Assembly: GCA_903837595.1 (NCBI GenBank)
Contig: CAILVI010000317.1
Span: 1 to 45,849 of the forward strand
Source of the DNA: an uncultured Thiodictyon sp.
Lineage (GTDB): Bacteria > Pseudomonadota > Gammaproteobacteria > Chromatiales > Chromatiaceae
Length of the DNA: 45,849 nt
Direction of reading: 5' to 3'
The notes beneath the pieces are model-generated. The model worked only from the letters and a program-made list of their open reading frames with translations. It did not search any database and was not told where the DNA came from. Each line of letters starts with the position of its first letter. Position 1 is the first letter of the stretch. Below, piece after piece: positions 525-17,424 of this stretch. A program made the translations under genes and the position numbers.

Positions 525-1196
525 TCAGCCATTATCGAGGAGGTACATTACGCGCCCTTTGGCCGGATTGCCAACTAGAAGTGATCCAGCCTCGACGTCG
601 TGAGTTACAGTAGACCCAGCAGCGACACGACACCGCGTGCCGATCCTGACACCTGGATTCACACCAACATGAGTTCCCAGAAAGACCTCTTCCTCAAGCA
701 CCACGCAGCCAGTGATCGCGGAGTATGGGCACAAGGTTGAGAAGGCCCCAATATGCGCGTCATGACCACAGGACGCGTATACATTGAGCGTCACATGGTT
801 TCCAAGGCTGGAGTCTATTCCGGTCAGGGAAAATGGGGCCATCACAATTCCGGCGCAAAGCGAGGCTGAGGACGCAACGTAGGCTGTCGGGTGAATGACG
901 TTCGTCCAATGCGTTACACCGGAGAGGAGCGCGACAGATCTCCGCTTCTCAGCAGGATTTCCGATACCCGTCACATAGGCGAATTCGGATCGAGGCTTGT
1001 GACTTTCGAGTGCGTCAACAAAGTCGATATTGAGATTGAATGCACTGATATGGTCGCCCGGTTTCTGACCTAAGTCGATGAAGCCCGCAACTCGGTCAAA
1101 GCTGGCTTGACGGCCATCCGCCAACTGATCCAGCGCATACGCATACACCTCACGGCCCATCGGGCCTGCACCGACGATGACCAGGCTTCTACCCAT
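525..1196 (-). CDS. NeuD-family sugar/acyl O- or N-acetyltransferase
   Basis: A 223-residue protein with the two-part NeuD/PglD layout. The N-terminus is Rossmann-like with a glycine-rich loop (VIVGAGPMGREVY, residues about 6-18). A left-handed beta-helix of hexapeptide repeats follows (about residues 100-215), with turns such as LGTHVGVNPGVRIG and an ending of the GNPAK type. Family members move an acetyl group from acetyl-CoA to an amino or hydroxyl group of a sugar, often during nonulosonate or bacillosamine-type synthesis. It is the last gene of the minus-strand operon, about 55 bases beyond the decayed acpS-like gene. It may cap or decorate the operon's product, but the substrate is unknown. 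The family is well supported; the acceptor cannot be read from sequence. Confidence 0.82.
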   Translation of the reverse strand: MGRSLVIVGAGPMGREVYAYALDQLADGRQASFDRVAGFIDLGQKPGDHISAFNLNIDFVDALESHKPRSEFAYVTGIGNPAEKRRSVALLSGVTHWTNVIHPTAYVASSASLCAGIVMAPFSLTGIDSSLGNHVTLNVYASCGHDAHIGAFSTLCPYSAITGCVVLEEEVFLGTHVGVNPGVRIGTRCRVAAGSTVTHDVEAGSLLVGNPAKGRVMYLLDNG

Positions 1197-1693: not shown

Positions 1694-2983
1694 TCACCCC
1701 AGTGCCCCCCTTACAGAGATCGTAACTTTGCGAGTCAGCTCTGTAAGTAGGTCGTAGCCGTCCCAGAACCGACTAAACCGCAGAGCCTGCCCGAACGGAA
1801 CAATGCGGTCGATTCCTCGCCCGCGAAGATCGCTGACCAGCTTTGTGATCTCTTGCTCAGGAATCCCGAAGGTTGTGAGTGTCTGATCGGCACGTCTAAC
1901 GTGACTCACAATCTCGTTCAACTGCGAAACGTGGAGCTGATAGAAAAGCCCCGCTCCACAGAACTCCCCGCGCACGTCGGGGAACGACGACATGTCGAGA
2001 ACGGTCAATGTGTTGTCCTGCGCACTGTAGCCAGAGACTTCGGCGTCGATCATTGTGCTATAGGACTGCCCAAGTTTGGCGATGGCGGTTGAAGTATCCA
2101 CTGAGTAGGCCTTCGCATGCGCTACCCCGCGAACACGGCTGAAGAAGTCATTAGCGGACGGCCCCGGGTCCCGCTTGCCGACCCACAGAAGCAACCGCGG
2201 CGAAGAGCAACCTAGCTGGTCAAACCAGTAAGCGTCATTGAAGAACAAATCCGCGAGCCGTCCGCGCTCCCGTGTGTCAAGTGACTGATAGGCTTCGATC
2301 CCAATCGCTGCCATCGAAAAACGATCGGCGAACACCACTTCGGTAGCGTGCGGAGGAATCGGGATTGACCGAATCCTATTGACAGTAACATCGCCACCCC
2401 AGATGACTCGAGTGTCGGAAACGGCAGAGATCGCCGCAGTCACAGAATCATCGTGCCCGTAAGTGACCATGACCGACGAGTCGGCGACGGTCCGGTGATT
2501 GACTAGGGCTTCACAGATCGTCTCGATTATCAGGTTAGACTGCTCCGTTGCGCGCGAAGAGAGTCTGACGATGTTGCGGTTTCCAACCAACGTGGAGAGC
2601 ACCCAAGAGTATACGAATAGAGTATCTACATTAGACGGCGGAATGTGGAACACTGTGCCCCGGGGCATCAGAACGAAACCCTCGGACTCGAGTTTCGAAA
2701 ACGCTACGTTCATGCGATGGATTTCTGCCTTCCTCATCCAGTAGGCCAGCGCCTGCGTTTCCGCAAGACCGCGGCCCGCCCGTGCCAGCCTGCGGGACAG
2801 GTCGGCAATGAACTCCGTGCGCGACTGATCGAATGGAGTGACTACCGGCGCCTGATTCAGGCGATCCAGAATTTCGCTCAGGTCTACCGACCGCTGCGCC
2901 GGGAGAACCTCCTGCACATGAAGTGGGCGCTTCGTGCGGGGTATATCGCACAATTGGCTTTCTTCTTGACCCAGCGTAGTCAT
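1694..2983 (-). CDS. LuxC-type acyl-CoA/acyl-protein reductase
   Basis: A 429-residue member of the LuxC aldehyde-dehydrogenase-like family, which reduces an acyl thioester to the free aldehyde with NADPH. Supporting segments are MPRGTVFHIPPSNVDTLF, the nucleotide-fold region VGNRNIVRLSSRATEQS, VIWGGDVTVNRIR, and the catalytic cysteine in FDQLGCSSPR (about residue 259 from the chosen start). I chose the ATG at 2983 because it overlaps the stop of the upstream LuxE-type gene as ATGA, like other junctions in this operon. An upstream ATG at 3022 would add 13 residues with no support. Together with the LuxE-type and ligase genes it should form an acid-to-aldehyde module. No luxAB is present, so the aldehyde probably feeds biosynthesis rather than light emission. 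Confidence 0.88.
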   Translation of the reverse strand: MTTLGQEESQLCDIPRTKRPLHVQEVLPAQRSVDLSEILDRLNQAPVVTPFDQSRTEFIADLSRRLARAGRGLAETQALAYWMRKAEIHRMNVAFSKLESEGFVLMPRGTVFHIPPSNVDTLFVYSWVLSTLVGNRNIVRLSSRATEQSNLIIETICEALVNHRTVADSSVMVTYGHDDSVTAAISAVSDTRVIWGGDVTVNRIRSIPIPPHATEVVFADRFSMAAIGIEAYQSLDTRERGRLADLFFNDAYWFDQLGCSSPRLLLWVGKRDPGPSANDFFSRVRGVAHAKAYSVDTSTAIAKLGQSYSTMIDAEVSGYSAQDNTLTVLDMSSFPDVRGEFCGAGLFYQLHVSQLNEIVSHVRRADQTLTTFGIPEQEITKLVSDLRGRGIDRIVPFGQALRFSRFWDGYDLLTELTRKVTISVRGALG

Positions 2984-4131
2984 CGTCTGCCTGCTCGATC
3001 CGAGGCATGGGTGTCCGAACAACCTCTGAGCTCAGACCTGGGCACGCGACCGAGTATTTGTAGCCGCTTCCCGGCCCAACCACTCGTTGGGTCTCCGGTT
3101 CCATGCACAACCCCAAGGTCTTCTGTCAGCAAAACGTGTCCGGGATAGGAGCGCGGGAGAACCGAAAGCACCTCGACGACTCCCGGCGTTCCGTCTGGAG
3201 CCGGTTCCCACGTCTGCGGATCTCGGATAATCACTTCCGCGAAATTCGGCGGGTATAGGAAGTTGTCGTCGCCTTCGAGGAATACCGAGCCGACCTGCTC
3301 GACCATGCCGTAGAAGTTGTGGACACGACCAAGCCCGGTTGCCTCCTTGAGCGCAGACTTGAACTCTACGTTGCCAACGGCCTCTTCGGCCAGTGCCTTC
3401 CAACCCCCGGAATGAATAAGTGTCCCGTTTGACAAATTCGGAAAGGCGCCGGCGCTGGTCAGCGCCCGCAGGAAGTACTGCCAAACCATAAAGGTGAAGC
3501 CGAAGAGCAGTATCGGCTCCTCGGCATGGCGCGCGAGAAACGCTTCGAGTCCCGGTAGGTCGAGCTCCATCTCATCATTCAGAGCATAAAAGTGGCGGCG
3601 ACCAAAAGGTAACATCCCCAGGACCCCTGCCCCACGGGCCGAGAACCTCTTGCGGTCTTTCACCACATTGGGAGTGTCGATGATGACCATCGGATGCCTT
3701 TGGTTACCCAGGACACGCGCCATCACCGCCGCAAGCGCCTTAGACTGCAGGTCAGCCGTCGTCCGGTCCAGAATGACCTGCGAGACAGCTTGGCCGGTCG
3801 TGCCCGAAGACGTCATCACCTTGAAGACCTGATCTTCGGGAACGCTAGACAGGCGGTGCGTCTTGAACAATGAGACGGGAAGATAGGGCAGTGCCTCAAG
3901 GGACGTATAGCCTGATTGGGGCGCGCCCAAGGCGTCCATAATCTTTCGGTACGGTTCGCATGCGATCCTATGCTGCGAGGTCATCCGCTCAAACTCCGAA
4001 AGAAGCAGTTGCTGCTTCTCATCCTGCGGGATCGAGAACTGGGGCCTGGTGAAGAGCTCGCTGAGCCCGGCCGATATCAGGGTACCTGCCGCCTTCGAAT
4101 CCGCTGCGGCCCCCGGCCTCGTCGCAGTCAT
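2980..4131 (-). CDS. LuxE-type acyl-protein synthetase
   Basis: A 383-residue protein of the LuxE/acyl-protein synthetase family, related to AMP-forming ligases. The phosphate-loop-like motif MTSSGTTGQAVSQV is present (about residues 106-119). A family segment VHNFYGMVEQVGSVFLE lies near residue 280, where AMP-forming enzymes carry their second adenylate motif. In the lux system LuxE activates a fatty acid as acyl-AMP and hands it to LuxC. Here a full-length AMP ligase and an ACP are encoded next door, so this protein might instead act in acyl transfer to the reductase. Start and stop each overlap neighbouring genes by four bases (ATGA), implying translational coupling. Confidence 0.86.
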   Translation of the reverse strand: MTATRPGAAADSKAAGTLISAGLSELFTRPQFSIPQDEKQQLLLSEFERMTSQHRIACEPYRKIMDALGAPQSGYTSLEALPYLPVSLFKTHRLSSVPEDQVFKVMTSSGTTGQAVSQVILDRTTADLQSKALAAVMARVLGNQRHPMVIIDTPNVVKDRKRFSARGAGVLGMLPFGRRHFYALNDEMELDLPGLEAFLARHAEEPILLFGFTFMVWQYFLRALTSAGAFPNLSNGTLIHSGGWKALAEEAVGNVEFKSALKEATGLGRVHNFYGMVEQVGSVFLEGDDNFLYPPNFAEVIIRDPQTWEPAPDGTPGVVEVLSVLPRSYPGHVLLTEDLGVVHGTGDPTSGWAGKRLQILGRVPRSELRGCSDTHASDRAGRR

Positions 4132-5567
4132 ATGCGATCAGCTCTTGCGCCGGCTGATCGCGCCAAGCCGGTGTAGTCGGGTTTGCCGCTGGGCAGTAAC
4201 GGGATCGCCGCTATGGTGCGCACCTCAATAAGCATGGGCGGGACCCGAAGCTGAGCCGCAAGCCCCTTCCTCAAATCGGACGCCTCAGCAGGGTCGATTC
4301 CCGTTGCGAACAACACCACCTTTTCGTCGTCGCAGCTCACAGCGATAATCTCCCTAGGAACGACGGACAAGCCGCCCGCAATCTGTTCGATCTCGTCTAG
4401 GGAGACGCGAGAACCCGCAAGTTTGCAGATGCGCTTGGACCGGCCGGTCAAGTAGAGAAACCCCTCATCGTCCAAGTAGCCAAGATCTCCCGTTACCAGG
4501 ACCCGACCATGGGTTGCCCCCAGGGTCAGATCATCCCGGCCCTCGGCATAGCCCATCATCACGTTTGGACCGCAGTAGACAACCTCACCGACCTGCCCGG
4601 TGGCCAATTCCTCCCCTCCTGGGCTACAGACCACGAACTCACTACCTCTCATCGCCAGCCCGACCGAGCCAAGCTTCGTCGGAAGATTAGTCGAGGGCAT
4701 ACACGACATCCTGGGTGAGGCCTCTGTCTGGCCGTACATCACGATAAACTGTCCACCTCGGCGCGCCATCACATCGTGGAAGAAACCTATGAGCGTCGGC
4801 GCAAGCCGCCCACCGGCTTGAATGAGCGCCCGAAGCTTGGGAAGCTCGCGCGACTCGAAACCCAGCCGCTTCAGCATAGTGTAGGTAGTGGGCACTCCGG
4901 GCAGGAAGGTCACTCCATGCCTGTGAAGACTGGACCAGAAGGCCTCCTCAATGACGCTCGACGAGGTGACTAGCACCGATGATCCTGCCAACGCATGGGA
5001 AGTGATCACGGACATGCCGAAGGAGTAGAAAAGGGGAAGCACCGTCACGGCCCTATCCGTCTCAATAATGCCGAGAGAGTGAACGATCTGTTCGGCGTTC
5101 GCCCGGATGTTCGCTGATGAAAGACGCACGAACTTTGGGCTACCCGTCGATCCGGAAGTGGTCAGTAGAACCGCAAGATCCCCATGTAGCTCAGGTCCGA
5201 ACTCGGAGGCGAGCCAGACCGACTGCTCAATGATCCGCCCGCTCGGCCCAAGCGGCGAGGCGAGATGTTCGCCCAAGTGCCTACCGGCAGGATCGATTAT
5301 CATGTCAGGCCGGTACCGGTCTATAAGACGAGCTACTGTGGGCCATTCGCTGCCAGCGTCGATCAAGGCAACCGGAAATCGTGCTTCCAAGAGCGCGAGG
5401 AACCAGAATGCAGCGTCCATTGTGCCGTCCGCAAGGAGGAAAGCAAGCCCTCGGGGCATCTCCCCTATCGGCTCACCCCGATCACGAATCGCCCCAACCG
5501 TTACTACATTACCCGAGGACGCCTCAATAAGCACCTCGTGGTCACTATCAAGGTGGTCCAGGAGCAT
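4128..5567 (-). CDS. AMP-forming acyl-CoA/acyl-ACP ligase
   Basis: A 479-residue ANL-superfamily enzyme. It has the P-loop LLTTSGSTGSPKFVRL (about residues 134-149), the adenylate motif MYGQTEASPRMS, the hinge region TGDLGYLDDEGFLYLTGR and the C-terminal lysine motif LPSGKPDYTGL. It should activate a carboxylic acid as acyl-AMP and load it on a thiol, either CoA or the adjacent carrier protein. It starts three bases after the acyl carrier protein stop and overlaps the LuxE-type gene by four bases, which favours loading of that carrier. It is somewhat shorter than many acyl-CoA synthetases of about 500-550 residues, but all core motifs are present. Chain length and acid type cannot be read from sequence. 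Confidence 0.88.
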   Translation of the reverse strand: MLLDHLDSDHEVLIEASSGNVVTVGAIRDRGEPIGEMPRGLAFLLADGTMDAAFWFLALLEARFPVALIDAGSEWPTVARLIDRYRPDMIIDPAGRHLGEHLASPLGPSGRIIEQSVWLASEFGPELHGDLAVLLTTSGSTGSPKFVRLSSANIRANAEQIVHSLGIIETDRAVTVLPLFYSFGMSVITSHALAGSSVLVTSSSVIEEAFWSSLHRHGVTFLPGVPTTYTMLKRLGFESRELPKLRALIQAGGRLAPTLIGFFHDVMARRGGQFIVMYGQTEASPRMSCMPSTNLPTKLGSVGLAMRGSEFVVCSPGGEELATGQVGEVVYCGPNVMMGYAEGRDDLTLGATHGRVLVTGDLGYLDDEGFLYLTGRSKRICKLAGSRVSLDEIEQIAGGLSVVPREIIAVSCDDEKVVLFATGIDPAEASDLRKGLAAQLRVPPMLIEVRTIAAIPLLPSGKPDYTGLARSAGARADRI

Positions 5568-5570
5568 AGT

Positions 5571-5816
5571 TTACGAGAAGCTGACGCCGTAATTGGTGAG
5601 GATCTCCTTGGTTATCTCGAAGCTCGACATACCGATTACGTCTTTGATCTCCAGCATAATATCGAATGCATCTTCGATTTGAGCAACCACCTGCATGTGT
5701 GCAACCGAATCCCATTGGGGGATGCTTCGATAGGCCAGTACTGCCCAATCCACGTCATCTCCGTCTATGCCCAAGCCCTCGATGAATGCCTGCTTGAGAG
5801 TGTCTTCAGCTGTCAC
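5571..5816 (-). CDS. Acyl carrier protein
   Basis: An 81-residue acidic four-helix carrier protein. The phosphopantetheine attachment serine lies in QWDSVAHMQVVAQIEDAFDI (serine about residue 37), matching the DS(L/V) motif of carrier proteins, with the usual acidic helix after it. It is encoded between the transketolase C-subunit and the acyl ligase and probably carries the substrate of the ligase and LuxC/LuxE steps. The AcpS-like gene downstream is broken, so activation of this carrier must rely on another phosphopantetheinyl transferase in the cell. Confidence 0.85.
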   Translation of the reverse strand: MTAEDTLKQAFIEGLGIDGDDVDWAVLAYRSIPQWDSVAHMQVVAQIEDAFDIMLEIKDVIGMSSFEITKEILTNYGVSFS

Positions 5817-5861
5817 TTAACTCTTTTCCCATTATTGATCAGATGAGTGCAAAACCAGTCG

Positions 5862-6830
5862 TTACGCCGCACCACGAACCCATCGCTCGACGGCCGTGGC
5901 GATAACGTTGTCAACTAAACCGCATTGCTCAAGAGCGTACTCATATGAGCCTACCTTGGGAAACGCATCACAGACGCCGAGCCGAAGCAGCGGAGGTGCC
6001 GCCATAACGGCGGCCACGACTTCGGCGACCGCGCTACCCAGCCCGCCGATCACCGAGTGTTCCTCGATTGTCACGAGCGCAGCCGTCTGTCCGACAAGAC
6101 CATTGAGCACCAACTCGTCGATCGGTTTCAGGGTGTGCATGTTCACGACGCCTACCGATAGCCCTCGCGCCGTCAACTGGTTGGCAGCGCGGACGGCTAC
6201 AGATACCATGCTGCCAGTACCAATGAAGGTGACGTCTGTGCCAGATCGGAGCACCCGTGCCTCCCCGAGGTTGAAACTTGTCCCCTCTTGGTCGACGCAA
6301 GGCATCGAAGGCACCCCGCTCAGCCGTAAGTAGGTTGGGGCGAAAGACGCAGCGATTGCGTAGACTGCCGCGTAAACCTCACTGCAATCCGCAGGACTGA
6401 CGATCGTAAGATTCGGGATCGACCGGAGTACGCCAACGTCCTCCAAGGAGTAGTGGGTGTTACCGAACTGCCCCATGGCGAACCCAGCCCCGATTCCGAC
6501 AATCTTCACATTCTGCTGCATGTAACCGAGGTGATGTCGAACGAACTCGCAACTTCGCATCGCAGCGAAGTTCGCGAAGGTCGTGGCGAAGGGAATCCAG
6601 CCGTCGTCAGCAAGACCTGCGGCGATGCCCACCAGGTTCTGCTCAGCTATCCCGACGTTGAAGAATCGTTCAGGCATCTGGACCCTGAACCGCTCCATGC
6701 CTGACGTAATGGCTAGGTCCGCGGTAAGGCCGACGATGCGGTCGCTCTCTTTGGCGGCATCGAGAAGGGCCATTCCGAAAGTGCCCCTAGGACCGAGCCG
6801 CGAGAGCCCCCTACCGGATGGGATCTTCAT
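5862..6830 (-). CDS. Transketolase-like C-terminal subunit
   Basis: A 322-residue protein covering the pyrimidine-binding and C-terminal domains of transketolase as a separate subunit. Family segments include TFGMALLDAAKESDRIVGL, the glutamate motif FFNVGIAEQNLVGIAAGLA that activates thiamine diphosphate, PFATTFANFAAMRSCE, and a C-terminal Rossmann domain with EEHSVIGGLGSAVAEVV. It overlaps the N-subunit gene by four bases, so the two should assemble into one thiamine enzyme that moves a two-carbon ketol unit. Stand-alone split transketolases inside biosynthetic operons often serve special products rather than the pentose phosphate pathway. Here the likely acceptor is the aldehyde made by the LuxC-type reductase, which is an inference. 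Confidence 0.87.
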   Translation of the reverse strand: MKIPSGRGLSRLGPRGTFGMALLDAAKESDRIVGLTADLAITSGMERFRVQMPERFFNVGIAEQNLVGIAAGLADDGWIPFATTFANFAAMRSCEFVRHHLGYMQQNVKIVGIGAGFAMGQFGNTHYSLEDVGVLRSIPNLTIVSPADCSEVYAAVYAIAASFAPTYLRLSGVPSMPCVDQEGTSFNLGEARVLRSGTDVTFIGTGSMVSVAVRAANQLTARGLSVGVVNMHTLKPIDELVLNGLVGQTAALVTIEEHSVIGGLGSAVAEVVAAVMAAPPLLRLGVCDAFPKVGSYEYALEQCGLVDNVIATAVERWVRGAA

Positions 6831-7666
6831 GGCGCCGATGCCCGACGACCGACATCGCCGCAGGCGGTCTCAAACTGTCCCTCGGTCATAAGCCCGTGGT
6901 GCCACTCCGCGGCATCTTCCATAAACGATACGCCCTTGCCCTTCACCGTACTTGCCAAGATACAGCGCGGTCTCGTAGAGATTGGAGTCTGAAGGGCTAC
7001 GCGTAGCCCCGGGATCGAATGACCGTCGAGCGCGATTACGTCCCACCCGAAGCCTTCCCACATCCCACGGAGACTGCACGACATAATCTCCGCGGTACGG
7101 CCATCAGACTGTAGTCTATTGACGTCAACGATAGCGATCAACCGTGACAGACCGAAGTGGGCTGCAGACATGGCGGCTTCCCAGACTGAACCCTCGTTGG
7201 TTTCGCCGTCGCCCATCAGCACGTACACCCCTCTCTCACTCTTCATCATGCGAGCAGATAGCGCCAGTCCAACACCGAAGGACAACCCCATGCCGAGGGT
7301 GCCGCTGGAGAACTCGATACCGAGTTCCCGGTTTCTGACCGGCTGCCCCGGCAGGAGTGTTCCGTCCCTTTCGGCGGAGACCAGAAGCTCCTGATCTATG
7401 TAGCCGAATTCGTGCAGTGCGGCATATAACGCCAGACTACCGTGGCCTTTACTCAAGATCACGCGGTCACGCTCGCTGTTTAAGCGCTGATCTGGGGACT
7501 GCCTGACGCCGACACCGTACAAGACAGTCATGATCTCCACAAGGGACAGCGCAGGCCCGAAGTGCGCGCCATAGCCACCAGCGTTATGTCCGATGCTCAC
7601 AATCCACTTTCGGCAACGACCGGCTATCGCGGCCAATGCCTCGTCGGTTAAGCCTTCTGCACTCAC
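6827..7666 (-). CDS. Transketolase-like N-terminal (thiamine diphosphate) subunit
   Basis: A 279-residue protein equal to the diphosphate-binding half of transketolase. The thiamine diphosphate/magnesium motif GDGETNEGSVWEA continues to VDVNRLQ (GDG...N spacing of the family). Other family segments are GYGAHFGPALSLVEIM and VILSKGHGSLALYAAL. It has four-base ATGA overlaps with the dehydrogenase gene upstream and the C-subunit gene downstream, showing tight coupling. The pair has the size of split transketolases seen in special-purpose clusters. The donor is probably a ketose phosphate, and the acceptor is unknown. Confidence 0.87.
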   Translation of the reverse strand: MSAEGLTDEALAAIAGRCRKWIVSIGHNAGGYGAHFGPALSLVEIMTVLYGVGVRQSPDQRLNSERDRVILSKGHGSLALYAALHEFGYIDQELLVSAERDGTLLPGQPVRNRELGIEFSSGTLGMGLSFGVGLALSARMMKSERGVYVLMGDGETNEGSVWEAAMSAAHFGLSRLIAIVDVNRLQSDGRTAEIMSCSLRGMWEGFGWDVIALDGHSIPGLRVALQTPISTRPRCILASTVKGKGVSFMEDAAEWHHGLMTEGQFETACGDVGRRASAP

Positions 7667-8418
7667 GCCCGCATCCCGCCGTCCACCCGCAGGACCTGAC
7701 CACTGACGTAGGACGCCAATGGCGAGAGCAGAAAACAGATTGCCTCGGCAATCTCACTGGGCTGTCCGCGTCGGCCGAGGTCCGTGTTTCTCTCAACACC
7801 CGTAATGACTTCATCGGTCATACTCGCCAGCATTTCAGTGTCGGTCATGCCGGGAGCTATGCCGTTCACGCGGATTCCGAACGGGCCTAGCTCGCGCCCG
7901 GCGGCCCTGGTCAGCGTGCTTAGTGCGGCCTTGGATGGGCCATAGACCGACCGACCCGGATTGCCGTCGATTGCGGCGGTTGACGATATGTTCACAATGC
8001 TTCCGTTGCGATGCCGAGCCATCAGCCGCGCACAACCCTGCATCACGCTAAACGGCCCGAAAAAGTTGGTTTCAAATACCTCGCGCGCGGTATCGATCTC
8101 TGACATCTGAAACAGAGCGTTGTAGGTCACGCCCGCATTGTTGACCAACCCGGTAAGCGGTCTTTCGAGTTTCCGCACAAATAACATCATTTCCCTGATG
8201 GATTCGCCGTCTGTCAGGTCGAGGCTCACAGCAGATGCCACGACGCCGCACGCATCAGCCAGCGCCTGGAGTCGAACGGAGAACTCGTCGCCGCCACTAC
8301 GTGAAGCAGCGATCACATAAGCCCCATTGGCAGCAAGCGACTGGCACGTGGCCCAGCCTATGCCGCGGTTAGCGCCGGTAACGAGGATCGTCTGCCCCTT
8401 TAGAATGCGGTCACTCAT
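7663..8418 (-). CDS. Short-chain dehydrogenase/reductase (FabG-like), second of two
   Basis: A 251-residue classical short-chain dehydrogenase. The cofactor loop VTGANRGIGWA, the NNAGVTYNALF motif, the catalytic serine region VNISSTAAI and the YGPSKAALS tyrosine-lysine pair are all present, and the C-terminus (SGQVLRVDGGM) is FabG-like. I chose the ATG at 8418, which overlaps the upstream stop as TGATG; a start at 8478 would intrude 60 bases into the neighbour. It likely reduces a keto group, possibly a ketol formed by the split transketolase or a carrier-bound 3-keto acyl group. Confidence 0.87.
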   Translation of the reverse strand: MSDRILKGQTILVTGANRGIGWATCQSLAANGAYVIAASRSGGDEFSVRLQALADACGVVASAVSLDLTDGESIREMMLFVRKLERPLTGLVNNAGVTYNALFQMSEIDTAREVFETNFFGPFSVMQGCARLMARHRNGSIVNISSTAAIDGNPGRSVYGPSKAALSTLTRAAGRELGPFGIRVNGIAPGMTDTEMLASMTDEVITGVERNTDLGRRGQPSEIAEAICFLLSPLASYVSGQVLRVDGGMRA

Positions 8419-9185
8419 CACATGCACCCGTCTATCCGCAAGGTCTGTCCGGTCACGAATGATGCCGCGGGCGAACACAGCCAGAGAATAACCGAAGCAA
8501 CCTCCTCAGGCTTGCCGATCCTTCCCATGGCCACGCGATCAAGCAGGCGCTCTCTCGCGGCCCCGTCCATGCGCCTGTTCATCTCCGTGTCGATTACGCC
8601 AGGAGCCACTGCGTTCACCCGGATGCCCTTTGACGCTAACTCCATGGAGAATATGCGGGTGGCGTTCAGCATCCCGGCCTTCGACGCCCCATACGCAAGC
8701 TGACCGGGATTCCCGTCGATCGCAGTTACGCTCGAAACGTTGACCACAGATCCCCCGCCAGTGCGCATCATCAGCCTGGTTAAGTACTGCGTGATCTGAA
8801 TGTGACCTTCGAGGTTGATTTGCATGTGACGTCGAAAAGACTCCGCCGTGACCATGTGAACGAGTGCGTCTTCGGCTATCCCGGCAACATTCACCAACGC
8901 TGCGATATCACGCGAGATCGAGCGTATTTCGCCCAAACCCTCGGAAACCGAGCCCGGGACCGTGAAATCCATGGCAACTGCTGAATGCACCGAGCCAGCG
9001 ACTGGAACGGGTAGTAAGTCCGCGATCTCGCTGGCATCACGAAGCGTTCTGTCGATAGCGATAACGTTAGCTCCGACATCCGCAAAGGCCCGCGCCGTGG
9101 CTTGTCCAATTCCACCGTGTGCGCCCGTGACGACGACATGTCGCCCACAAAAGTATTCACGATGCTGGGTCCAACTCTTGGCCAT
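8418..9185 (-). CDS. Short-chain dehydrogenase/reductase (FabG-like), first gene of operon
   Basis: A 255-residue classical short-chain dehydrogenase with VTGAHGGIGQA (cofactor loop), NVAGIAEDALVH, the serine region VNVSSVTAI and the YGASKAGML tyrosine-lysine pair. It ends TGQTLRIDGCM. It resembles the next gene in length and motif order, suggesting an old tandem duplication with divergence. It is the first gene after the promoter at 9392-9421, with an untranslated leader of about 200 bases. In context it should reduce a carbonyl in the operon's product. The substrate is unknown. Confidence 0.87.
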   Translation of the reverse strand: MAKSWTQHREYFCGRHVVVTGAHGGIGQATARAFADVGANVIAIDRTLRDASEIADLLPVPVAGSVHSAVAMDFTVPGSVSEGLGEIRSISRDIAALVNVAGIAEDALVHMVTAESFRRHMQINLEGHIQITQYLTRLMMRTGGGSVVNVSSVTAIDGNPGQLAYGASKAGMLNATRIFSMELASKGIRVNAVAPGVIDTEMNRRMDGAARERLLDRVAMGRIGKPEEVASVILWLCSPAASFVTGQTLRIDGCM

Positions 9186-9391
9186 CTTCTTATTACCCTA
9201 CTTGGACGCTGCATCAGGAGCTACTGGCCACATCATAGCGTAGCGAGGACTGGAAGTGCCCTGGCGGCATTGGCGCCAGCGTCTCGCCGGGGTGCCGATA
9301 GACCCGAAGCCGTGCAGGCAACATGGTAAAGGCAGCACCCATCGGCAGCGGTCTAACCGGCCCAGAATCAAAAAAATACAAGTATGTTCGA

Positions 9392-9421
9392 ATTCTACAA
9401 GAGATAAAATATCTAGGTCAA
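9392..9421 (-). promoter_or_regulatory. Sigma-70-type promoter of the SDR-transketolase-LuxCE operon
   Basis: On the minus strand TTGACC (9421-9416) is followed after 18 bases by TAGAAT (9397-9392), close to the sigma-70 consensus and in an A/T-rich patch. Transcription would start near 9385, about 200 bases before the first gene at 9185. I saw no JUMPstart/ops element in the leader. Confidence 0.6.
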
Positions 9422-9548
9422 GGGTTTATGCCCTATTATCCCAGCTGCCCCCGTTGGCGCCTAACTGATAGTCCTGCTTCCCAAGTCTGGGCTCTCCACT
9501 TAGCCGAAGTGAACTGAGGCGGCGAATAACCCCCATGCGGGCATCCAT

Positions 9549-10345
9549 TATCCTCACTCGGCAGGCAAGTTTCAGGCGTGTTTCGGAACCGATGGGGACC
9601 GTCTAGACGACCTGAAATGGCTCCGGTGGCCTGTGGGCTTTGGCTGTCCGGCCTTCGGCCACGATGGCGGCTGGGGCCTGGGCGATGGTCTATATCATGC
9701 GCGTCGGGCACACTGGTCAGACGTCGACGACCGCCGGCACGATCTTCGAACGAACGCGACGCCATTGACGGTGGTTCACCGGCTGCTGGCACTTTGCCGC
9801 CGGCAAAGACCGGGCCTCGGCGTCGAGCCGGCAACGGACGCTCGCGATCGACTCCTGACAGACCGCATGGGCCATGCTCCATCAACTGCACGGCAGGGTG
9901 GATGTCGACGAGACCCTCATAGGCGGGAAAAAGGAGGGGCTGCCCGGCGGACACGCCCATGGCAAGAGCGTCCTAACCGACATCGCCGCGGAAACGCTTG
10001 AACCGAAAGGGTTCGGCCGATGCCGAATGCGGCCGATCACCGATGCCGCGACGACCTCGCTGCATCCCTGTGGTGACAGACGTCGTTGCTCGGGTGGCGA
10101 CGGCAATCACCGACGGCTGGCAGGCACTGCGGACTGGATCAGCACAACTAACTCCATCACTCGCATAGCCAGCGGGCCGCGGGCGCCTGCGGGGTGGATG
10201 CCGCGCAGAGCCTTCCCGGGGCACATCGAGTCGCTTCGCTGGCCGAGCGGTGGTACTGGGTACCCACCAAGGGGCAGTGGATAGGGCGTATCTGACCAGA
10301 TCCCAAATCAACGTATTTCGCGTTGCATGCGACGGAGGTATTGTG
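9549..10345 (+). mobile_element. Degraded IS1595-family transposase remnant
   Basis: Pieces of one transposase follow each other in order but in different frames. The N-terminal part FQACFGTDGDRLDDLKWL is followed by PVGFGCPAFGHDGGW, equal to the zinc-ribbon start of IS1595 transposases with two cysteines lost. GQTSTTAGTIFERTR and TPLTVV come next, then QTAWAMLHQLHGRVDVDETL and IGGKKEG (the first catalytic aspartate), and AAETLEPKGFGRCRM. The end has RVASLAERW and LGTHQGAV. Several frameshifts and stops show that it is dead. I did not find convincing terminal inverted repeats, so element ends are approximate. It sits just upstream of the operon promoter and may mark how this accessory region was assembled. 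Confidence 0.75.
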
Positions 10346-10725
10346 AACCGATAAGACGACCCGCTCATAAGAATATGATTTATGTTTATCACCCTCTTGT
10401 GTAATGGATTTTTTACCAAAAAAGCGAAGGCATTACTTGCTCCAAAGAGACAAGATTAATCTATGCACGGAAAAACGTAAGACTTTATTATTGCTATTCT
10501 ATTTTCCACTTCTGGGTTTGCCACTTAACCGGAGCAAGCTGGCACGATGGCTCAGCTTAACGCCAGGATCATTGTCTTGGTCCGGGGCGGAGTTTTAGGC
10601 TCAGTCCAGAAGTGATGCTGACTGTTTGGGCAGGCCAACGGGTTTCGGCCGAGCTACCGACCCCAGAGGTGAAGCCCCCCGAAATGGCCAGCGCCGAGTC
10701 CTAGACAGCGTCTACGACCAGCGAT
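10346..10725. other. A/T-rich stretch without a gene
   Basis: Between the transposase remnant and the end of the methyltransferase gene the sequence is unusually A/T-rich for this window (10360-10520). No supported gene, RNA or clear terminator is visible. It is consistent with insertion debris. Confidence 0.4.
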
Positions 10726-11512: not shown

Positions 11513-12472
11513 CTATGGTCGTCGGTAGAGAACGTACGGGGCATTGCCCCCAACCCGCTGACACACGCCGACCAGGATCCGTCGCACGCCCGCCCTGGCG
11601 ATCACAGCGGTAATGAGCCAGGCCATACGAATACCGCCAACCGGACTACTCCGAAATACGATCGGAAGCCATTTCCGGACCAACACCAAACTCCGAAGGC
11701 GCACTGCCGCAAATGCCGCGCTCCGGGCAAAGTCGGCCATGCCGCGCGCACGATCGATCGCGGGTACAGATCCGGCCGGCACATCTAACAACGCATCCCA
11801 ATACAGTTGTCGTACTTGGTCACCAGCATTCATCACCATCGAACTGGTCGATCCTACCCGATAGCCCACCAGCGCACGGTTCAAATATCCGACTGCCCCG
11901 CTACGGGCAAATCTGAGATGCATACGATAGTCGATAAATGGCGCTGGCAATGCCAGTACCACCTCACGAAGGACGGCGCGGTAGAGCACAGAACTCTGGT
12001 TAAGAAAGTTGCCATGTCGCACTAGATCGGCAATGCCGAAGCGCGCCGGTTGAAAATTATTGAATACCCCAAGTGGGCAGCCATCGTCCGCGATAGTAAA
12101 CGTGTTCGAGTAAACCGCCGGGCAGTCGGGATGGTTCTCCATGAATGCGATTTGGGCGCTAAGCTTACCCGGAAGCCAGAAATCATCGCCATCGCAATGT
12201 GCGATGTACCGACCACGCGCCTGCTGGACCAGGGACTGATAGTTGGCGGCGGCACCGAGCTGCGGCTGATGGCATCGGTAAAAGATAACATCGGGAAAGC
12301 GATTGGCGACAGCGGTTACGACTTCCTTGGTTGCGTCCCCGGAGTTATCATCTCCCACAAGAATCTCCAGCGTACCAGGAACCTCTTGAGCGATGATACT
12401 CATCAGACAATCACTGATGTAGCGCTCGTGATTGAAAGTGGCAACACAGACCGATATTAGTGGCTGTTTCAT
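11513..12472 (-). CDS. Family 2 glycosyltransferase
   Basis: A 319-residue GT-A fold enzyme. It opens with ISVCVATFNHERYISDCL, carries the nucleotide-sugar aspartates in LVGDDNSGDAT, and has the metal-binding motif AHCDGDDFWLPGKL near residue 95. The C-terminal third is hydrophobic and basic and may associate with the membrane. It begins three bases after the stop of the Wzx-like flippase gene. It should add one sugar to the lipid-linked repeat unit before export. Donor and acceptor are not predictable here. Confidence 0.86.
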   Translation of the reverse strand: MKQPLISVCVATFNHERYISDCLMSIIAQEVPGTLEILVGDDNSGDATKEVVTAVANRFPDVIFYRCHQPQLGAAANYQSLVQQARGRYIAHCDGDDFWLPGKLSAQIAFMENHPDCPAVYSNTFTIADDGCPLGVFNNFQPARFGIADLVRHGNFLNQSSVLYRAVLREVVLALPAPFIDYRMHLRFARSGAVGYLNRALVGYRVGSTSSMVMNAGDQVRQLYWDALLDVPAGSVPAIDRARGMADFARSAAFAAVRLRSLVLVRKWLPIVFRSSPVGGIRMAWLITAVIARAGVRRILVGVCQRVGGNAPYVLYRRP

Positions 12473-12475
12473 AGA

Positions 12476-13960
12476 CTACCTCCTCACTGCTCCAAGTGGG
12501 TCACCCACTCTGCCTCCGCCTGCCAGAAATCCGACGAGTAGCGCGGCACCGAGCACCAGCGCGACGACCAGCAGGGTTTCGATGGGACTGGCGAACGACG
12601 GTAAGATTCTGGACACCAACGTCAGCCAGGCGATGATCGGCAGTGCGACCAAGAGGACGTCGCGAAACGGCCAAACCCAGACCAGAGTGGGCATCAGACG
12701 TCGATGCGCCAAGGGGACCCAGAGGAAGAGAAAAAGTACATTGCCACAGAGCAGCGTTATACCAGCGCCGACACCGCCAAAATGGGCGGAAGCATACATC
12801 AGCGTGGGCAGCAACGTCATCGCAACGAGCAGGTTACCGACGACGTGAAGGCGCAGGTAGCCGAAACCGAACTGGAGCATGAAGGGTAACGTCAGCACGC
12901 CGATCGGGGTATAGGCAAGCGCGTACCAGAACAGGATCGGTGAGGCTGCCTCCACTGCATCGGGGCTACCGACCCACATCCGCACAAGAGGCTCCGAAAA
13001 AAGCGCCAAGGTTCCGCCTATAGCGACGAATACTGCGGTCACGCGCCGCGTCGACAGACGATACAACTCGCGCAAGGCATCGACCCGCCCCGCCGCTACA
13101 AGGATAGTCAGCCGCGGTTGCAGCACCTGGTTGAGTGGCGGCACCAGGATTAAAACCCCGCCCGCCAGCGCCGCCGCCAGGGTAAAGTAGCCGAATGATT
13201 GGAGCGACAGGCATTTGGAAAGGATCAACTTATCGATCTGGGTGAGGAAAATCCACATGCCGGACATAAAGGCCATGGCACCGGCGATAGGCAACATGGA
13301 CCGCATGCCTGACCAATCCGGCTTCGTTATTCCGGGCAAGCTTGGCAAGTATCGATACAGTAACCAGGCATGAGTCAAACATTCGATAAGACCGACAATG
13401 GCTTGGTAAGCGAAAAACGTAATTGCAGCTGCCGACCAAAAATTCAAAAGCGCAATCACGCCAAGAAACCGTAGCGTTGCAAAAGCGAAGCCGGCAGCGT
13501 TGACAGCGCTCTGCTTTTCCAATCCTATCAACCCGGAACGATAAAGCCCCATCACCCAGCGTAGGCAGGCGGCATACGCCATCGCAATAATTGATAAACG
13601 AACCTGTCCGACCTCCAGCGAGGAAAAAGAAAGCCAATCTCGGGCGATCCAGTCGCTGGACATGGTCAGACTCAGAACAGCCAGCAACGCCAGTGTGCCG
13701 ATGACCCACTCCAAACAGCGCAGGCGTGCGCGAGCAGTGGCGAGGCTCAAGGTCCCGGCCCGGTGCAGCGACAGCTCACGTGAGAGGGTGGGAGAGAGCC
13801 CGAGATCGAGGATCTGCATCCCTGCCTGCAGGATTGCGAAAAAGCCTACCAGCCCGAATGCCTCAGCCCCCATGAGGCGTAGACATATGGGCATCAGAGC
13901 GATAGCCAATAGCGCGATGTAGCCTTGGATCAGAGCACTCAGGAGTAATTGCGGTGCCAC
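12476..13960 (-). CDS. Wzx-like polysaccharide flippase
   Basis: About 494 residues with roughly 12-14 hydrophobic helices and the opening LLLSALIQGYIALLAIALMP typical of MATE-like Wzx/RfbX proteins, which flip undecaprenyl-linked repeat units across the inner membrane. Other family-like features are LRLMGAEAFGLVGFFAI near the start and polar segments between paired helices. I chose the GTG at 13960. Extending to 14116 would add 52 arginine-, proline- and glycine-rich residues that are the out-of-frame reading of the decayed acetyltransferase. No Wzy-like polymerase is visible in the window. Confidence 0.83.
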   Translation of the reverse strand: MAPQLLLSALIQGYIALLAIALMPICLRLMGAEAFGLVGFFAILQAGMQILDLGLSPTLSRELSLHRAGTLSLATARARLRCLEWVIGTLALLAVLSLTMSSDWIARDWLSFSSLEVGQVRLSIIAMAYAACLRWVMGLYRSGLIGLEKQSAVNAAGFAFATLRFLGVIALLNFWSAAAITFFAYQAIVGLIECLTHAWLLYRYLPSLPGITKPDWSGMRSMLPIAGAMAFMSGMWIFLTQIDKLILSKCLSLQSFGYFTLAAALAGGVLILVPPLNQVLQPRLTILVAAGRVDALRELYRLSTRRVTAVFVAIGGTLALFSEPLVRMWVGSPDAVEAASPILFWYALAYTPIGVLTLPFMLQFGFGYLRLHVVGNLLVAMTLLPTLMYASAHFGGVGAGITLLCGNVLFLFLWVPLAHRRLMPTLVWVWPFRDVLLVALPIIAWLTLVSRILPSFASPIETLLVVALVLGAALLVGFLAGGGRVGDPLGAVRR

Positions 13961-13965
13961 CAGAC

Positions 13966-14546
13966 TCAGCCCGCACCAAGACGTTGGCGCAGTTGCAAAT
14001 CCAGGGTCAGTAGGTCGCGCTGGCGCTCCGCCGTGCGGCGGGCCGGAATCTCGGCATCGACACGGAAACCCGAGTAGCACCCGAGGATCGGGCGCAATCC
14101 CCCAACGCCACCCCATTTGTCAATCGTGACACCGGGAAGCATCACGCTGCGACGCCCGAAAATTGCATGCCAGGCAATAACGGCTCGCCGGCGATCCACG
14201 CCGCTCAGGTCTTCGCGGACGGTGGGATGCGTCGGGTAGCTAGCCAAATGGTAATCACTGCTGGAAGATACGGATACGCGGAAAGACATTGTTGAAAAGT
14301 TATCCATGGCGATTCGCTCATAGCCGATCAGCTAGGCATGGCTAGCGAGGTGAATAAAGTTACTCAAATTAGGTCCGGCGCTATCCGCCGAGAGGATACC
14401 GACGTCGTCGCTCCGGGCATCGCATCGTGGCCGCAGATTCGCGGCCCCATAAATGGCTGAGGAGCGTGATATACGAACACGCTCGCCGCCGTCGGCGGAC
14501 CCCAGTCACGAAGATCGGGATCGGAATAGGCGCCCATCTCAAACAT
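13966..14546 (-). pseudogene. Frameshifted hexapeptide acetyltransferase (partner of the sugar aminotransferase)
   Basis: The ATG at 14546 overlaps the end of the aminotransferase gene and opens MFEMGAYSDPDLRDWGPP, like the M.AY.....L...G start of dTDP-amino-sugar acetyltransferases of the VioB/FdtC type. This frame stops after about 60 residues. A second frame resumes with SSSSDYHLASYPTHPTVRED, like the family's SDDYSG..LTNPTVP segment, then IFGRRSVMLPGVTI, and ends EIPARRTAERQRDLLTLDLQ, like G.PAKR...RSRDLL. The middle beta-helix repeats are scrambled by frameshifts. The gene is therefore dead, although its partner aminotransferase is intact. Confidence 0.65.
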
Positions 14547-15645
14547 CCGCGATGATTTCCGCGATACGCGCGACCTGGGGTTCGGTTAGTTCAGGATAGA
14601 TGGGCAGACAGAGTATCTTGCCGGCGATTGCCATGGCGACTGGAAGCCGTTCCGGCCGCGCGCTCGGCCGACCGCGATACATTGGAAAGTCTGTTATCAA
14701 GGGATAGAAATAGCGGCGCGCAAAAATGTTGCTATTCTTGAGTCTGTCATAGAGTGCATCGCGGCCGATAGGGTATTCAGGTTCCACCATAATCGGAAAA
14801 TATGAATAATTATGGCGCTTGGATTCCGGCAGCGACAAACAGCGTATGCCGGTCAGGCTGGACAATGCGGCACGATAGCGGCAATCGATCTCGGCCCGTT
14901 GCTTAAGCGCGTCGTCGATATATTTGAGCTGAAGAAGGCCCAGGGCGGCCTGAAACTCGTTCATTTTTCCGTTGATGCCGGGAGCCACGACGGTGACCTC
15001 GTCGGCAAATCCGAAATTCTTCAGGAAATCGATCCGCTGTTTGGTCTTGGCGTCCGGACTAACAATGGCGCCGCCCTCGAAGGTGGTGAAGACTTTGGTG
15101 GCGTGAAAGCTAAGGATGGAAAGATCGCCGTGACGCAGTACACTGCCGCCCTGGTCTTGGACCGCGAAGCAATGGGCCGCGTCGTAGATTACCTTGAGGC
15201 CATAGATATCTGCAATTTGCTGGATCTTAGCGGTATCGCACGGGCGACCATAGACATGTACAGGCAGAATAGCGCTGGTCTGGGGGGTGATGGCCTCTTC
15301 GATCTTCGCGGGGTCGAGATTCAGTGACTCGGGATCGATGTCCACGAATACCGGCTGGATGCCGTTCCATAGCAATGAATGCGCAGTGGCGACAAAGCTG
15401 TAGGACGTAGTGATCACCTCGCCGGCAATACGCAGCGCCTGCAGGGCAGTAACCAGGGCGAGGGTACCGTTGGCGAAGAGTGAGATATGGTCCACGCCCA
15501 GGTAATTGCACAACGCCTGTTCCAATTGCTCATGGAAAGGACCGGCATTGGTGAGCTGGCGGTTCTTCCAGATCTGCTCTAGGTAAGGCTGCAATTCCCT
15601 TAGTGGCGGCAGAAATGGCTGGGTGACATAAATGGGCTCACTCAT
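14539..15645 (-). CDS. DegT/DnrJ/EryC1-family sugar aminotransferase
   Basis: A 368-residue PLP enzyme of the sugar aminotransferase family. The substrate-recognition start LTNAGPFHEQLEQAL, the cofactor-site segment FANGTLALVTALQAL, DAAHCF (PLP-contacting aspartate) and the catalytic lysine in LSFHATKVFTTFEGG (about residue 185) are all present. It is close in layout to the VioA/FdtB group that makes dTDP-4-amino- or 3-amino-6-deoxy sugars. No dTDP-glucose synthase or dehydratase is in the window, so the keto-sugar must come from elsewhere. The acetyltransferase expected to acylate its product is broken downstream. Confidence 0.88.
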   Translation of the reverse strand: MSEPIYVTQPFLPPLRELQPYLEQIWKNRQLTNAGPFHEQLEQALCNYLGVDHISLFANGTLALVTALQALRIAGEVITTSYSFVATAHSLLWNGIQPVFVDIDPESLNLDPAKIEEAITPQTSAILPVHVYGRPCDTAKIQQIADIYGLKVIYDAAHCFAVQDQGGSVLRHGDLSILSFHATKVFTTFEGGAIVSPDAKTKQRIDFLKNFGFADEVTVVAPGINGKMNEFQAALGLLQLKYIDDALKQRAEIDCRYRAALSSLTGIRCLSLPESKRHNYSYFPIMVEPEYPIGRDALYDRLKNSNIFARRYFYPLITDFPMYRGRPSARPERLPVAMAIAGKILCLPIYPELTEPQVARIAEIIADV

Positions 15646-16112: not shown

Positions 16113-17000
16113 TTAGGGCATTGGAGCACGTGGCTTTTCTGGCGCGTTGATCGGCCGATACATGAGCTGAGTAATCTGCTCCGAAACCAGTCCAATCAAG
16201 AATACGACGACCGCCGTGGTGAGCATGAAAACGGTCATAATAGAAAGCCGCAGGGCCAGGGTGTAGGTGTAAACCCAATATCCGACCCCCAACAGAAAGA
16301 AGAGTAACGAGACCGGTACAAAAATCTTCAGCGGCGAGTACAGCGTCCCAATCTTGAAGATGATGAGCAGGAAGCGCACGCCGTCCTGCAAGGGCCGCAG
16401 GTGACTCTTGCCGGTGCGCTGCCCGGCGGTAATTGGGACATAGCTGACATCATACCCGGCGCGAAAAAAGGCCATGGTGCTGGTGGTCGGGTAGGAAAAG
16501 CCGTTTGGCAGCAGGTAGAGGAACTCCAGAAACCGCTCGGCACGGGCGGCGCGGAAGCCGGAGGTGAGGTCCAACACCGGCTGCCCCGTCATGTAGGTCG
16601 CGAGCTGATTGTAGATACGGTTGGCGAGACCCCGGGCAACCGTGGCCTGGGAGGCCGAGCGGCGGGCGCCGACCACCATGTCGAACCCTTGGTGGAGTCG
16701 CTCCAGCAGACGGGGGATGTCGGCGGGATCGTGTTGGCCGTCGGCGTCCATGAAGACCAGGATATCGCCCGTGGCCGCGCGGACGCCGGACTTGATGGCG
16801 GCGCCGTTGCCTTTTTGGTAAGGATGGTGGATTAGCCGCACAGCCGCCGCGGTACAGACCGCCGCCGAGGCGTCCGTGGAGGCATCATCCACCACCAAGA
16901 CCTCCGCCTCGGGCAGGACCTGGCGGATGCGCGCGAGCAGCCCTTGCAGCGGCACCGCCTCGTTGCGGCAAGGGAGGATGATGCTGATCTTGGAAGGCAC
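16113..17000 (-). CDS. Polyprenyl-phosphate glycosyltransferase with C-terminal membrane anchor
   Basis: About 295 residues. The N-terminal GT-A domain has ISIILPCRNEAVPLQGLL, VLVVDDASTDASAA and the metal motif VFMDADGQHDPADIPRL, as in dolichol-phosphate mannosyltransferase-like GT2 enzymes. Two hydrophobic helices near the C-terminus (about residues 215-280) anchor it in the inner membrane. These enzymes move a sugar to undecaprenyl phosphate for later use outside the cell. I chose the GTG at 17000 because it directly precedes the first strand and has GGAG six bases upstream; ATGs at 17087 and 17117 would add unstructured residues. Confidence 0.83.
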   Translation of the reverse strand: MPSKISIILPCRNEAVPLQGLLARIRQVLPEAEVLVVDDASTDASAAVCTAAAVRLIHHPYQKGNGAAIKSGVRAATGDILVFMDADGQHDPADIPRLLERLHQGFDMVVGARRSASQATVARGLANRIYNQLATYMTGQPVLDLTSGFRAARAERFLEFLYLLPNGFSYPTTSTMAFFRAGYDVSYVPITAGQRTGKSHLRPLQDGVRFLLIIFKIGTLYSPLKIFVPVSLLFFLLGVGYWVYTYTLALRLSIMTVFMLTTAVVVFLIGLVSEQITQLMYRPINAPEKPRAPMP

Positions 17001-17424
17001 GCAGGCTCCGTCGATGTTACGTGTACAGGGCAGTGGACCGGACGATCCGTGCGATGACGACCCGTCCCGCCCGCACCGGTCAATCATGCCGATACTGGCC
17101 GGGAGGACAGACGCCATCCTGGCCCTGGGTTCAGGTATCCTACCGCAATAAGCGAAGCCGTTTTACCCCCGACTGTCGGGGCACAGCATACTCGAACTGT
17201 CGGTTGCCGCCACAGCGCTCATCGACGATGCAACGCCACGGTTGCGGTGGATGCGCCCGCGCGAGCCCTGCCGATCAACCTGAATCCGGGCACCGTCCAC
17301 GCCACAACGCCCACAACAACAACGGCACTCCGTATTCCCACATCTATCCGCGGGCTGCATGCACGCCGCGGGTAGCGCGCGGTATTCCCTTAGCGATTTT
17401 GCGTGAGGACGGCACCGTTTCGGC
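17001..17424. other. Gap between the glycan locus and the sensor pseudogene
   Basis: Apart from the 3' tail frame of the broken EAL domain, no gene or RNA is supported. The minus-strand frame continuing to 17163 after the EAL frameshift is arginine- and cysteine-rich and is an artefact of reading the wrong frame. Confidence 0.4.

Follow-up and report, generated by a model that had tools for sequence, protein, structure and literature searches.

What does an operon make that joins LuxC- and LuxE-type enzymes of aldehyde formation to a split transketolase (TK) and an acyl carrier protein (ACP)? The question arises from a 45,849-nucleotide stretch of DNA from an uncultured Thiodictyon sp. (GenBank assembly GCA_903837595.1, contig CAILVI010000317.1, positions 1 to 45,849; hereafter the window), in which such an operon of eight genes lies on the minus strand. 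The TK of this operon belongs to a clade that was found only beside LuxE and LuxC in our sample and that has lost an arginine of the phosphate-binding site. Our analysis suggests an unreported route for lengthening the acid groups on flagellar and surface sugars. The reading we favor, which we consider about evenly poised between right and wrong, is that the product of the operon is an unusual acyl group destined for an amino sugar in a surface glycan and built by way of an ACP-linked acid, an aldehyde, and a ketol.

The operon and its transketolase

All eight genes are open and co-directional, as an original prediction made from the sequence alone had stated. They run from 9185 to 1694 in the order SDR1-SDR2-TKN-TKC-ACP-LIG-LuxE-LuxC:

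8418 to 9185, minus strand: SDR1, a FabG-like short-chain dehydrogenase (SDR) of 255 amino acids (PF13561, adh_short_C2, 186 bits)
7663 to 8418, minus strand: SDR2, a FabG-like SDR of 251 amino acids from the ATG at 8418 (PF13561, adh_short_C2, 198 bits)
6827 to 7666, minus strand: TKN, the N-terminal, thiamine diphosphate (ThDP)-binding subunit of the split TK (PF00456, Transketolase_N, 118.2 bits)
5862 to 6830, minus strand: TKC, the C-terminal subunit of the split TK (PF02779 and PF02780, Transket_pyr and Transketolase_C, 115.3 and 97.7 bits; 6yaj, E 3e-67)
5571 to 5816, minus strand: ACP, with its phosphopantetheine serine in WDSVAHM (23-sequence alignment; PF00550)
4128 to 5567, minus strand: LIG, an adenosine monophosphate (AMP)-forming acid ligase (PF00501, AMP-binding, 144.8 bits; A10-type Lys conserved)
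2980 to 4131, minus strand: LuxE-type acyl-protein synthetase (PF04443, 174.8 bits; SSGTTG motif, Cys371)
1694 to 2983, minus strand: LuxC-type acyl reductase (PF05893, 99.6 bits; start set at the ATG at 2983)

Five of the seven junctions overlap. The prediction had called the genes mostly four-base-overlapping, which is correct for SDR2/TKN, TKN/TKC, LIG/LuxE, and LuxE/LuxC; SDR1 and SDR2 share 1 base if the start is ATG and 4 if it is GTG, but TKC-ACP and ACP-LIG are separated by gaps of 45 and 3 bases, respectively.

The TKCs beside LuxC and LuxE formed one clade, with a support of 99/94 for 9 rows against 42 controls. An enlarged quick tree of 12 lux-linked rows, including two pairs of close copies (L101/L178 and L104/L192), against 49 controls gave the same clade with a Shimodaira-Hasegawa-like approximate likelihood ratio (SH-aLRT) of 100. 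The window TKC sits on a long branch, and its position inside the clade is unsure. Genomes were searched with a profile built from seven lux-linked TKCs. Among 204 genomes of the window's order, only three profile members scored above 500 bits, and the next score was 287. Five sets of 151, 245, 150, 360, and 269 genomes, which overlap and each hold a profile member, yielded four TKCs outside the profile at 446 to 531 bits (G698, G636, G1251, and G1281, the first nearly identical to the profile row L101), and no score between 333 and 446 bits was present among the matches listed. All four adjoin LuxC, LuxE, LIG, and ACP. In the range of 263 to 333 bits, 20 TK loci were fetched out of many, and 19 of them have no LuxE in the fetched stretch (shorter than 15 kb for L183, L215, and L217). 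Furthermore, the ten Rhizobium plasmid records with a LuxE of this kind were the ten top-scoring Rhizobium TKC rows among 40 listed of 357, with the two genes a few kilobases apart; two of the ten records were read with their annotation.

Residues were compared in human TKT numbering. Position 474 is Gly, Ser, or Ala in 12 of 12 lux-type rows, whereas it is Arg (41 rows) or Lys (7 rows) in all 48 controls (repeats included, 46 distinct). Arg474, together with His416, Arg318, and Ser345, is a sugar-phosphate-binding residue of TKT. The catalytic Glu366 and Arg318 were kept in all 12 lux-type rows. The window TK combines the ThDP motifs and catalytic Glu366 of a pentose-phosphate TK with Gly at both His416 and Arg474, two residues that are lost in 12 of 12 lux-type rows. 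The nearest solved chain to TKN is 6yak, the N-component of a split TK (E 1e-55). This Carboxydothermus enzyme (6yaj/6yak) shares with the window TK the division into two subunits and the cofactor motifs, but it keeps the equivalents of His416, Asp424, and Arg474, all three of which are missing from the window enzyme. The loss of Arg474 would fit an acceptor or donor that does not end in the usual phosphate. It also makes it less likely that the TK serves only pentose phosphates, the finding that had been named as a refutation of the original prediction, and the source genome (7.79 Mb, 576 contigs), which holds one match to the window LuxE, has a separate full-length TK.

TK gain or loss was also traced on a quick LuxE tree of 99 rows, 96 of them counted. 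The 9 TK-positive rows are scattered over this tree and imply at least 7 changes, of which starred branches force 4; clustering of the label is mild, as shuffled labels gave a mean of 8.7 changes and 22 of 500 shuffles were as low as 7. L015 (genome G190), the sister of L013, has no lux-type TK in its genome. The dependence is therefore one-way: LuxE and its partner genes often occur without a TK, and the lux-type TK was not seen without them in the sample. This is most simply explained if the TK acts on the product of LuxE and LuxC, an aldehyde, and an aldehyde-acceptor role of the lux-type TK is likely. The predicted coupling of aldehyde formation to ketol transfer is supported by the TK clade, which in our sample occurs only beside LuxE/LuxC, and by the lost phosphate-site Arg.

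The core cassette and its glycan setting

The partner genes were surveyed in 90 loci found through LuxE (80 from genome contigs and 10 from the window's order), whose neighboring gene content was determined by tblastn, a co-occurrence search that the original prediction had proposed. Near LuxE we found LuxC in 87 loci, ACP and the ligase in 85 each, an SDR in 80, NeuD in 10, and both TK halves in 5. The 80 genome loci, which are the best 80 of at least 557 LuxE relatives and rich in Amycolatopsis, contained LuxC and the ligase in 80, ACP in 78, and an SDR in 75. For the 10 loci of the window's order the counts were 7 for LuxC and ACP and 5 for the ligase and SDR, three of these loci having a distant LuxE alone. 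The gene grouping is not chance. Its commonest order is ACP-SDR-LIG-LuxE-LuxC, and it usually comes without TK (85 of 90 loci). The window has all five families on one strand, with the SDRs moved to before the TK pair; the cassette SDR of most compared loci is nearer to SDR2 than to SDR1 by best matches. Phage records gave a single weak LuxE with 23% identity. Across the fetched actinomycete loci (Amycolatopsis, Nonomuraea, and others), the five-gene cassette is common, and in L077 it adjoins an LpxA-like hexapeptide acyltransferase and an LPG_synthase_TM-type membrane protein.

The TK-bearing cassettes vary in gene order. SDR-TK-TK-ACP-LIG-LuxE-LuxC was found in the window and L177, ACP-SDR-TK-TK-LIG-LuxE-LuxC in L101, and ACP-SDR-SDR-TK-TK-LIG-LuxE-LuxC, with NeuD upstream, in L211. 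In Rhizobium and L016, the TK pair is followed by an acyltransferase and then ACP, and L210 has a gap of matching size. The TK pair lies at most 1.6 kb from ACP in 11 of 12 loci. One TK variant adds a GMC oxidoreductase (L016, L085, L210, and the Rhizobium loci L104 and L192) as well as an SDR, and FabZ where annotated in Rhizobium. L192, on a Rhizobium plasmid, also carries a DegT aminotransferase and lies near siderophore-uptake genes.

The carrier is an ACP, as predicted. The window ACP alone is marginal against PF00550 (17.6 bits, cut-off 20.8), and 16 of the 23 aligned cassette ACPs match this family at E of 0.01 or less; all 23 have the serine of the WDS motif. In LIG, Lys462 is invariant in 13 of 13 sequences and the conserved Arg is R286. 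LuxC and LuxE each have the Pfam domain and the conserved Cys of their families: Cys259 of LuxC is invariant in 14 of 14, and Cys371 of LuxE is invariant in 7 of 7 and aligns with Cys364 of the solved LuxE 7xc6. The operon shares these two families with the LuxCDE fatty acid reductase of bioluminescence, but its scores are far below the LuxCDE equivalog cut-offs (35.8 against 750 bits for LuxC and 71 against 550 for LuxE). Neither LuxD thioesterase nor the LuxAB luciferase, whose absence had been predicted, turned up among those window proteins that were searched with Pfam, a set that leaves out some small open reading frames.

The module of LuxC, LuxE, ACP, and ligase is not new. The relevant passages on Aeromonas group II flagellin glycosylation islands list orf1 to orf3, luxE, and luxC, the same five genes, directly downstream of pseH (PMC7874193), and those on enterobacterial islands describe the same genes as fatty-acid-type, or fatty acid synthase-like (PMC4875605). 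The cassette is reported there for 98 strains of Aeromonas and some 70 enterobacterial ones, and a sugar with a lipid part ("liposugar") is suggested in passages that assign no chemistry (PMC7874193, PMC4875605). Like these islands, the window combines ACP, a FabG-like SDR, an AMP-ligase, LuxE, and LuxC within a single glycan locus. In contrast, two SDRs precede a TK pair in the window, whereas the word transketolase has 0 occurrences in PMC7874193 and PMC4875605. No report of a TK joined with LuxE/LuxC or pseudaminic acid in such a setting was found in the open-license PMC literature. The core of ACP, SDR, ligase, LuxE, and LuxC is widespread and already described without known function in glycosylation islands; the new part is the TK.

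The neighbors of the cassette include acyltransferases. A gene finder placed 54 genes next upstream of ACP within the 90 loci, many of them Amycolatopsis near-copies. Hexapeptide proteins account for 32 of the 54 and GNAT proteins for 5 (about 37 together, assuming that no protein matches both); among the remaining 17 are sugar transferases, glycosyltransferases, one TKC, and one LuxC. In Bacillota, the cassette is accompanied by relatives of PseC, PseF, PseG, and PseI in 9 of 10 loci examined (L037, L043, L055, L087, L096, L099, L101, L177, and L178, but not L072), and L101 also has FliD and a gene related to MptE/PseD. A GNAT directly flanks the cassette in these islands, either before ACP or after LuxC, and all six tested pass the curated PseH cut-off, two of them narrowly. 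This suggests that PseH takes the acyl-ACP of the cassette instead of acetyl-coenzyme A (CoA), a change of donor that we infer. The window has an acyltransferase downstream of LuxC:

525 to 1196, minus strand: NeuD/PglD-like hexapeptide acyltransferase (PF00132; TIGR03570, 136.5 bits, below the curated cut-off of 160.8)

The original prediction drew the operon as the eight genes and overlooked this one, which probably belongs to the unit and encodes a probable acceptor-side enzyme of the pathway. The window cassette is not embedded between pse genes: no such gene was seen among the window proteins searched with Pfam, where DegT-type and NeuD-like proteins are the only ones of this kind. The glycan setting that had been predicted is supported. 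The PseH- and NeuD-type neighbors indicate that the product is an N-acyl group carried by an amino sugar, in place of the free ketol or lipid first considered.

A proposed route and its alternatives

In the proposed route, LIG would load an acid onto the ACP, as its family suggests. LuxE would activate a carboxyl group and pass it to LuxC for reduction to the aldehyde, judging from the families and the conserved active-site residues. The split TK, given its genetic link to LuxE/LuxC and the lost Arg474, would move a two-carbon ketol from a ketose donor to this aldehyde, and the ketone so formed would be reduced by one or both SDRs, which in versions without TK would act on the aldehyde. The NeuD-like acyltransferase, or PseH in pseudaminic-acid islands, would then transfer the finished acyl group from ACP to the amino sugar. 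LuxE had been predicted to act as an acyl transferase; its family assignment stands, but it retains an AMP-forming SSGTTG motif of its own and thus need not simply relay an acyl group from the ACP. Since LIG and LuxE are both enzymes of carboxylate activation, a dicarboxylic acid with one end on the ACP and the other reduced is the simplest version. Among the PDB and NCBIfam matches of LIG are oxalate, malonate, succinylbenzoate, and 2-oxoglutaryl-ACP ligases, which hint at a dicarboxylic substrate, but faintly, because the best score belongs to a model of an exosortase-linked ligase and acyl-CoA ligases of other kinds reach similar scores.

A precedent for the ketol step is azinomycin biosynthesis, in which the transketolase AziC5/C6 extends glutamate semialdehyde, according to the pertinent part of PMC9570651. 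The predicted analogy with the azinomycin (AziC2-C6) and vazabitide A pathways is supported. In those pathways, glutamate that is protected or bound to a carrier is first reduced to the semialdehyde and then extended by a transketolase (PMC9570651). These pathways, as described there, use a kinase and an ArgC-type reductase with an N-acetyl group or an amino-group carrier protein, whereas the window has LuxE/LuxC and a phosphopantetheine ACP. The operon is not an amino-group carrier pathway with a LysW-like carrier and ArgB/ArgC-type enzymes, as its carrier is PF00550-like and its enzymes are of the LuxE and LuxC families. A carrier-bound form of ketol extension, on the ACP, is plausible.

A more specific version of the route, which we regard as unlikely to be right in all its details, starts from a four-carbon diacid on the ACP. 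Malate is our guess for this acid; LuxE/LuxC would reduce its far end to an α-hydroxyaldehyde, for instance malyl semialdehyde, the kind of acceptor that a TK would be expected to take. After TK had added C2H4O2, reduction by the SDR would give a tetrahydroxyhexanoyl (2-deoxyhexonoyl) group on a nonulosonic or other amino sugar, while a cassette without TK would give 3,4-dihydroxybutanoyl (102.03 Da). Dihydroxybutanoyl groups occur on nonulosonic acids. By formula calculation, replacing one acetyl of the Pse5Ac7Ac residue (316.127 Da) by C4H6O3 gives 376.148 Da, and C4H6O3 itself is 102.032 Da; C5H10O2 (102.068 Da) is also a unit of 102 Da. The cassette-bearing A. piscicola AH-3 is described as having a linking sugar of 376.14 Da and an unknown 102-Da unit in the glycan passages of PMC7874193. 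The malate-type version, if true, would identify these unexplained 376- and 102-Da units of the Aeromonas flagellar glycan. It predicts 376.148 Da for a pseudaminic acid residue made without TK. The favored reading in general predicts an increase of 60.021 Da for the TK step, so that the N-acyl group would be this much heavier in TK-positive strains than in their TK-negative sisters. The product of the cassette has so far been guessed only as a lipid, and the link to PseH/NeuD and the dedicated TK clade lead to a chemical hypothesis with exact masses. If it is right, glycan biosynthesis gains a carbon-chain extension by transketolase, possibly on a phosphopantetheine carrier.

Several other explanations were weighed. 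LuxE and LuxC could form a free aldehyde that TK converts to a free, deoxyketose-like ketol and an SDR to a polyol or ketose attached by a glycosyltransferase, the ACP and ligase only supplying or modifying the acid. The link of TK to LuxE/LuxC, the glycosyltransferases nearby, and the ability of LuxE to work on free acids agree with this account, but the closeness of ACP to the TK pair, the acyltransferases before ACP in about 37 of 54 loci, and the PseH-type GNATs flanking the cassette in pse islands do not; moreover, no kinase or nucleotidyltransferase for a new sugar was found by Pfam among the operon proteins. We consider it unlikely. A long-chain fatty aldehyde or lipid for the glycan, along the lines of the "liposugar" passages (PMC4875605, PMC7874193), with TK yielding a long-chain ketol, is less probable still. 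The LuxC, LuxE, and FabG-like families and the FabZ of the Rhizobium loci are what it would lead one to expect, but the extra masses of 102 and +60 Da are small, and Pfam found no ketosynthase among the operon proteins. PseH-type acyltransferases, too, use small acyl groups.

We rate just as low the idea that TK forms or cleaves a ketose for some unrelated sugar of the glycan, its location being due only to the polysaccharide that it and the cassette both serve. Split TKs do exist at places without LuxE/LuxC, and the usual cassette lacks TK, but this idea would leave unaccounted for both the loss of the phosphate-site Arg and a single TK clade that always lies beside LuxE/LuxC in the sample, across Bacillota and Pseudomonadota and in varied gene orders. 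TK could also put an oxidized two-carbon unit from a ketose on the ACP as glycolyl-ACP, as NapB/NapD do, for elaboration by the rest of the operon. The closeness of TK to ACP would suit such loading, but the ligase would be superfluous, the dependence on LuxE/LuxC would go unexplained, and no lipoyl domain was found by Pfam among the operon proteins, which makes this the least credible of the explanations.

The acyl-group reading itself has to face a number of observations that speak against it. The usual substrates of LuxE are free fatty acids, not ACP-bound ones. Only Arg474 is diagnostic among the TK residues: loss of His416/Asp424 was rejected as a marker, as most controls lack both (His in 5 of 48, Asp in 5 of 48). 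L212 (genome G426) has a split TK of another type, with Lys at the Arg474 position, about 8.8 kb from the LuxE of a complete ACP-SDR-LIG-LuxE-LuxC cassette. TK lies 7.1 kb from ACP in L085, and the ligase was not found on the 15.7-kb contig of L013. The GMC oxidase and FabZ of the Rhizobium-type loci are not explained by the scheme. The flanking acyltransferases could simply use acetyl-CoA, the NeuD-like gene of the window is about 500 bases from LuxC, and the gene downstream of LuxC varies between loci (24 picked genes, 23 from 47 gene-finder calls and one from L072). In addition, the match to 376 and 102 Da is one of formulas, to sugars that their authors call putative. A. hydrophila AH-1, cited in PMC7874193 as an example of the small-island type, has a glycan of 403 Da, a mass that the authors account for in another way, by methyl groups, water molecules, and 25 Da of unknown nature (PMC4691044). 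The legend of figure 5 of that paper marks ions of a "376 Da sugar" in AH-1, a strain seemingly without the cassette (PMC4691044).

Other features of the window

Farther upstream of the operon, the same strand also encodes a methyltransferase, two glycosyltransferases of family 2, and a DegT aminotransferase, the last being a possible source of the amino sugar:

11513 to 12472, minus strand: family 2 glycosyltransferase (PF00535, 81.5 bits)
14539 to 15645, minus strand: DegT-type sugar aminotransferase (PF01041, 342 bits)
16113 to 17117, minus strand: family 2 glycosyltransferase (PF00535, 110 bits)

Promoter- and terminator-like sites were not above those in shuffled sequences. Between the operon and the upstream methyltransferase, about 1.5 kb (9186 to 10725) holds only short overlapping open reading frames. 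On the other side of the operon, positions 1254 to 1680 of the minus strand hold reading-frame pieces broken by stops; a remnant of a carrier-protein synthase was suspected there by eye (about 1254 to 1680, between LuxC and the NeuD-like gene) and was rejected, as Pfam gave nothing useful for either piece. A protein of 546 amino acids without a Pfam match is encoded between the two glycosyltransferases (12476 to 14116, minus strand). At 17163 to 20375 on the minus strand, a GGDEF-EAL protein is apparently split, with positions 3 to 76 of the EAL profile in the first reading frame and 87 to 215 in the next.

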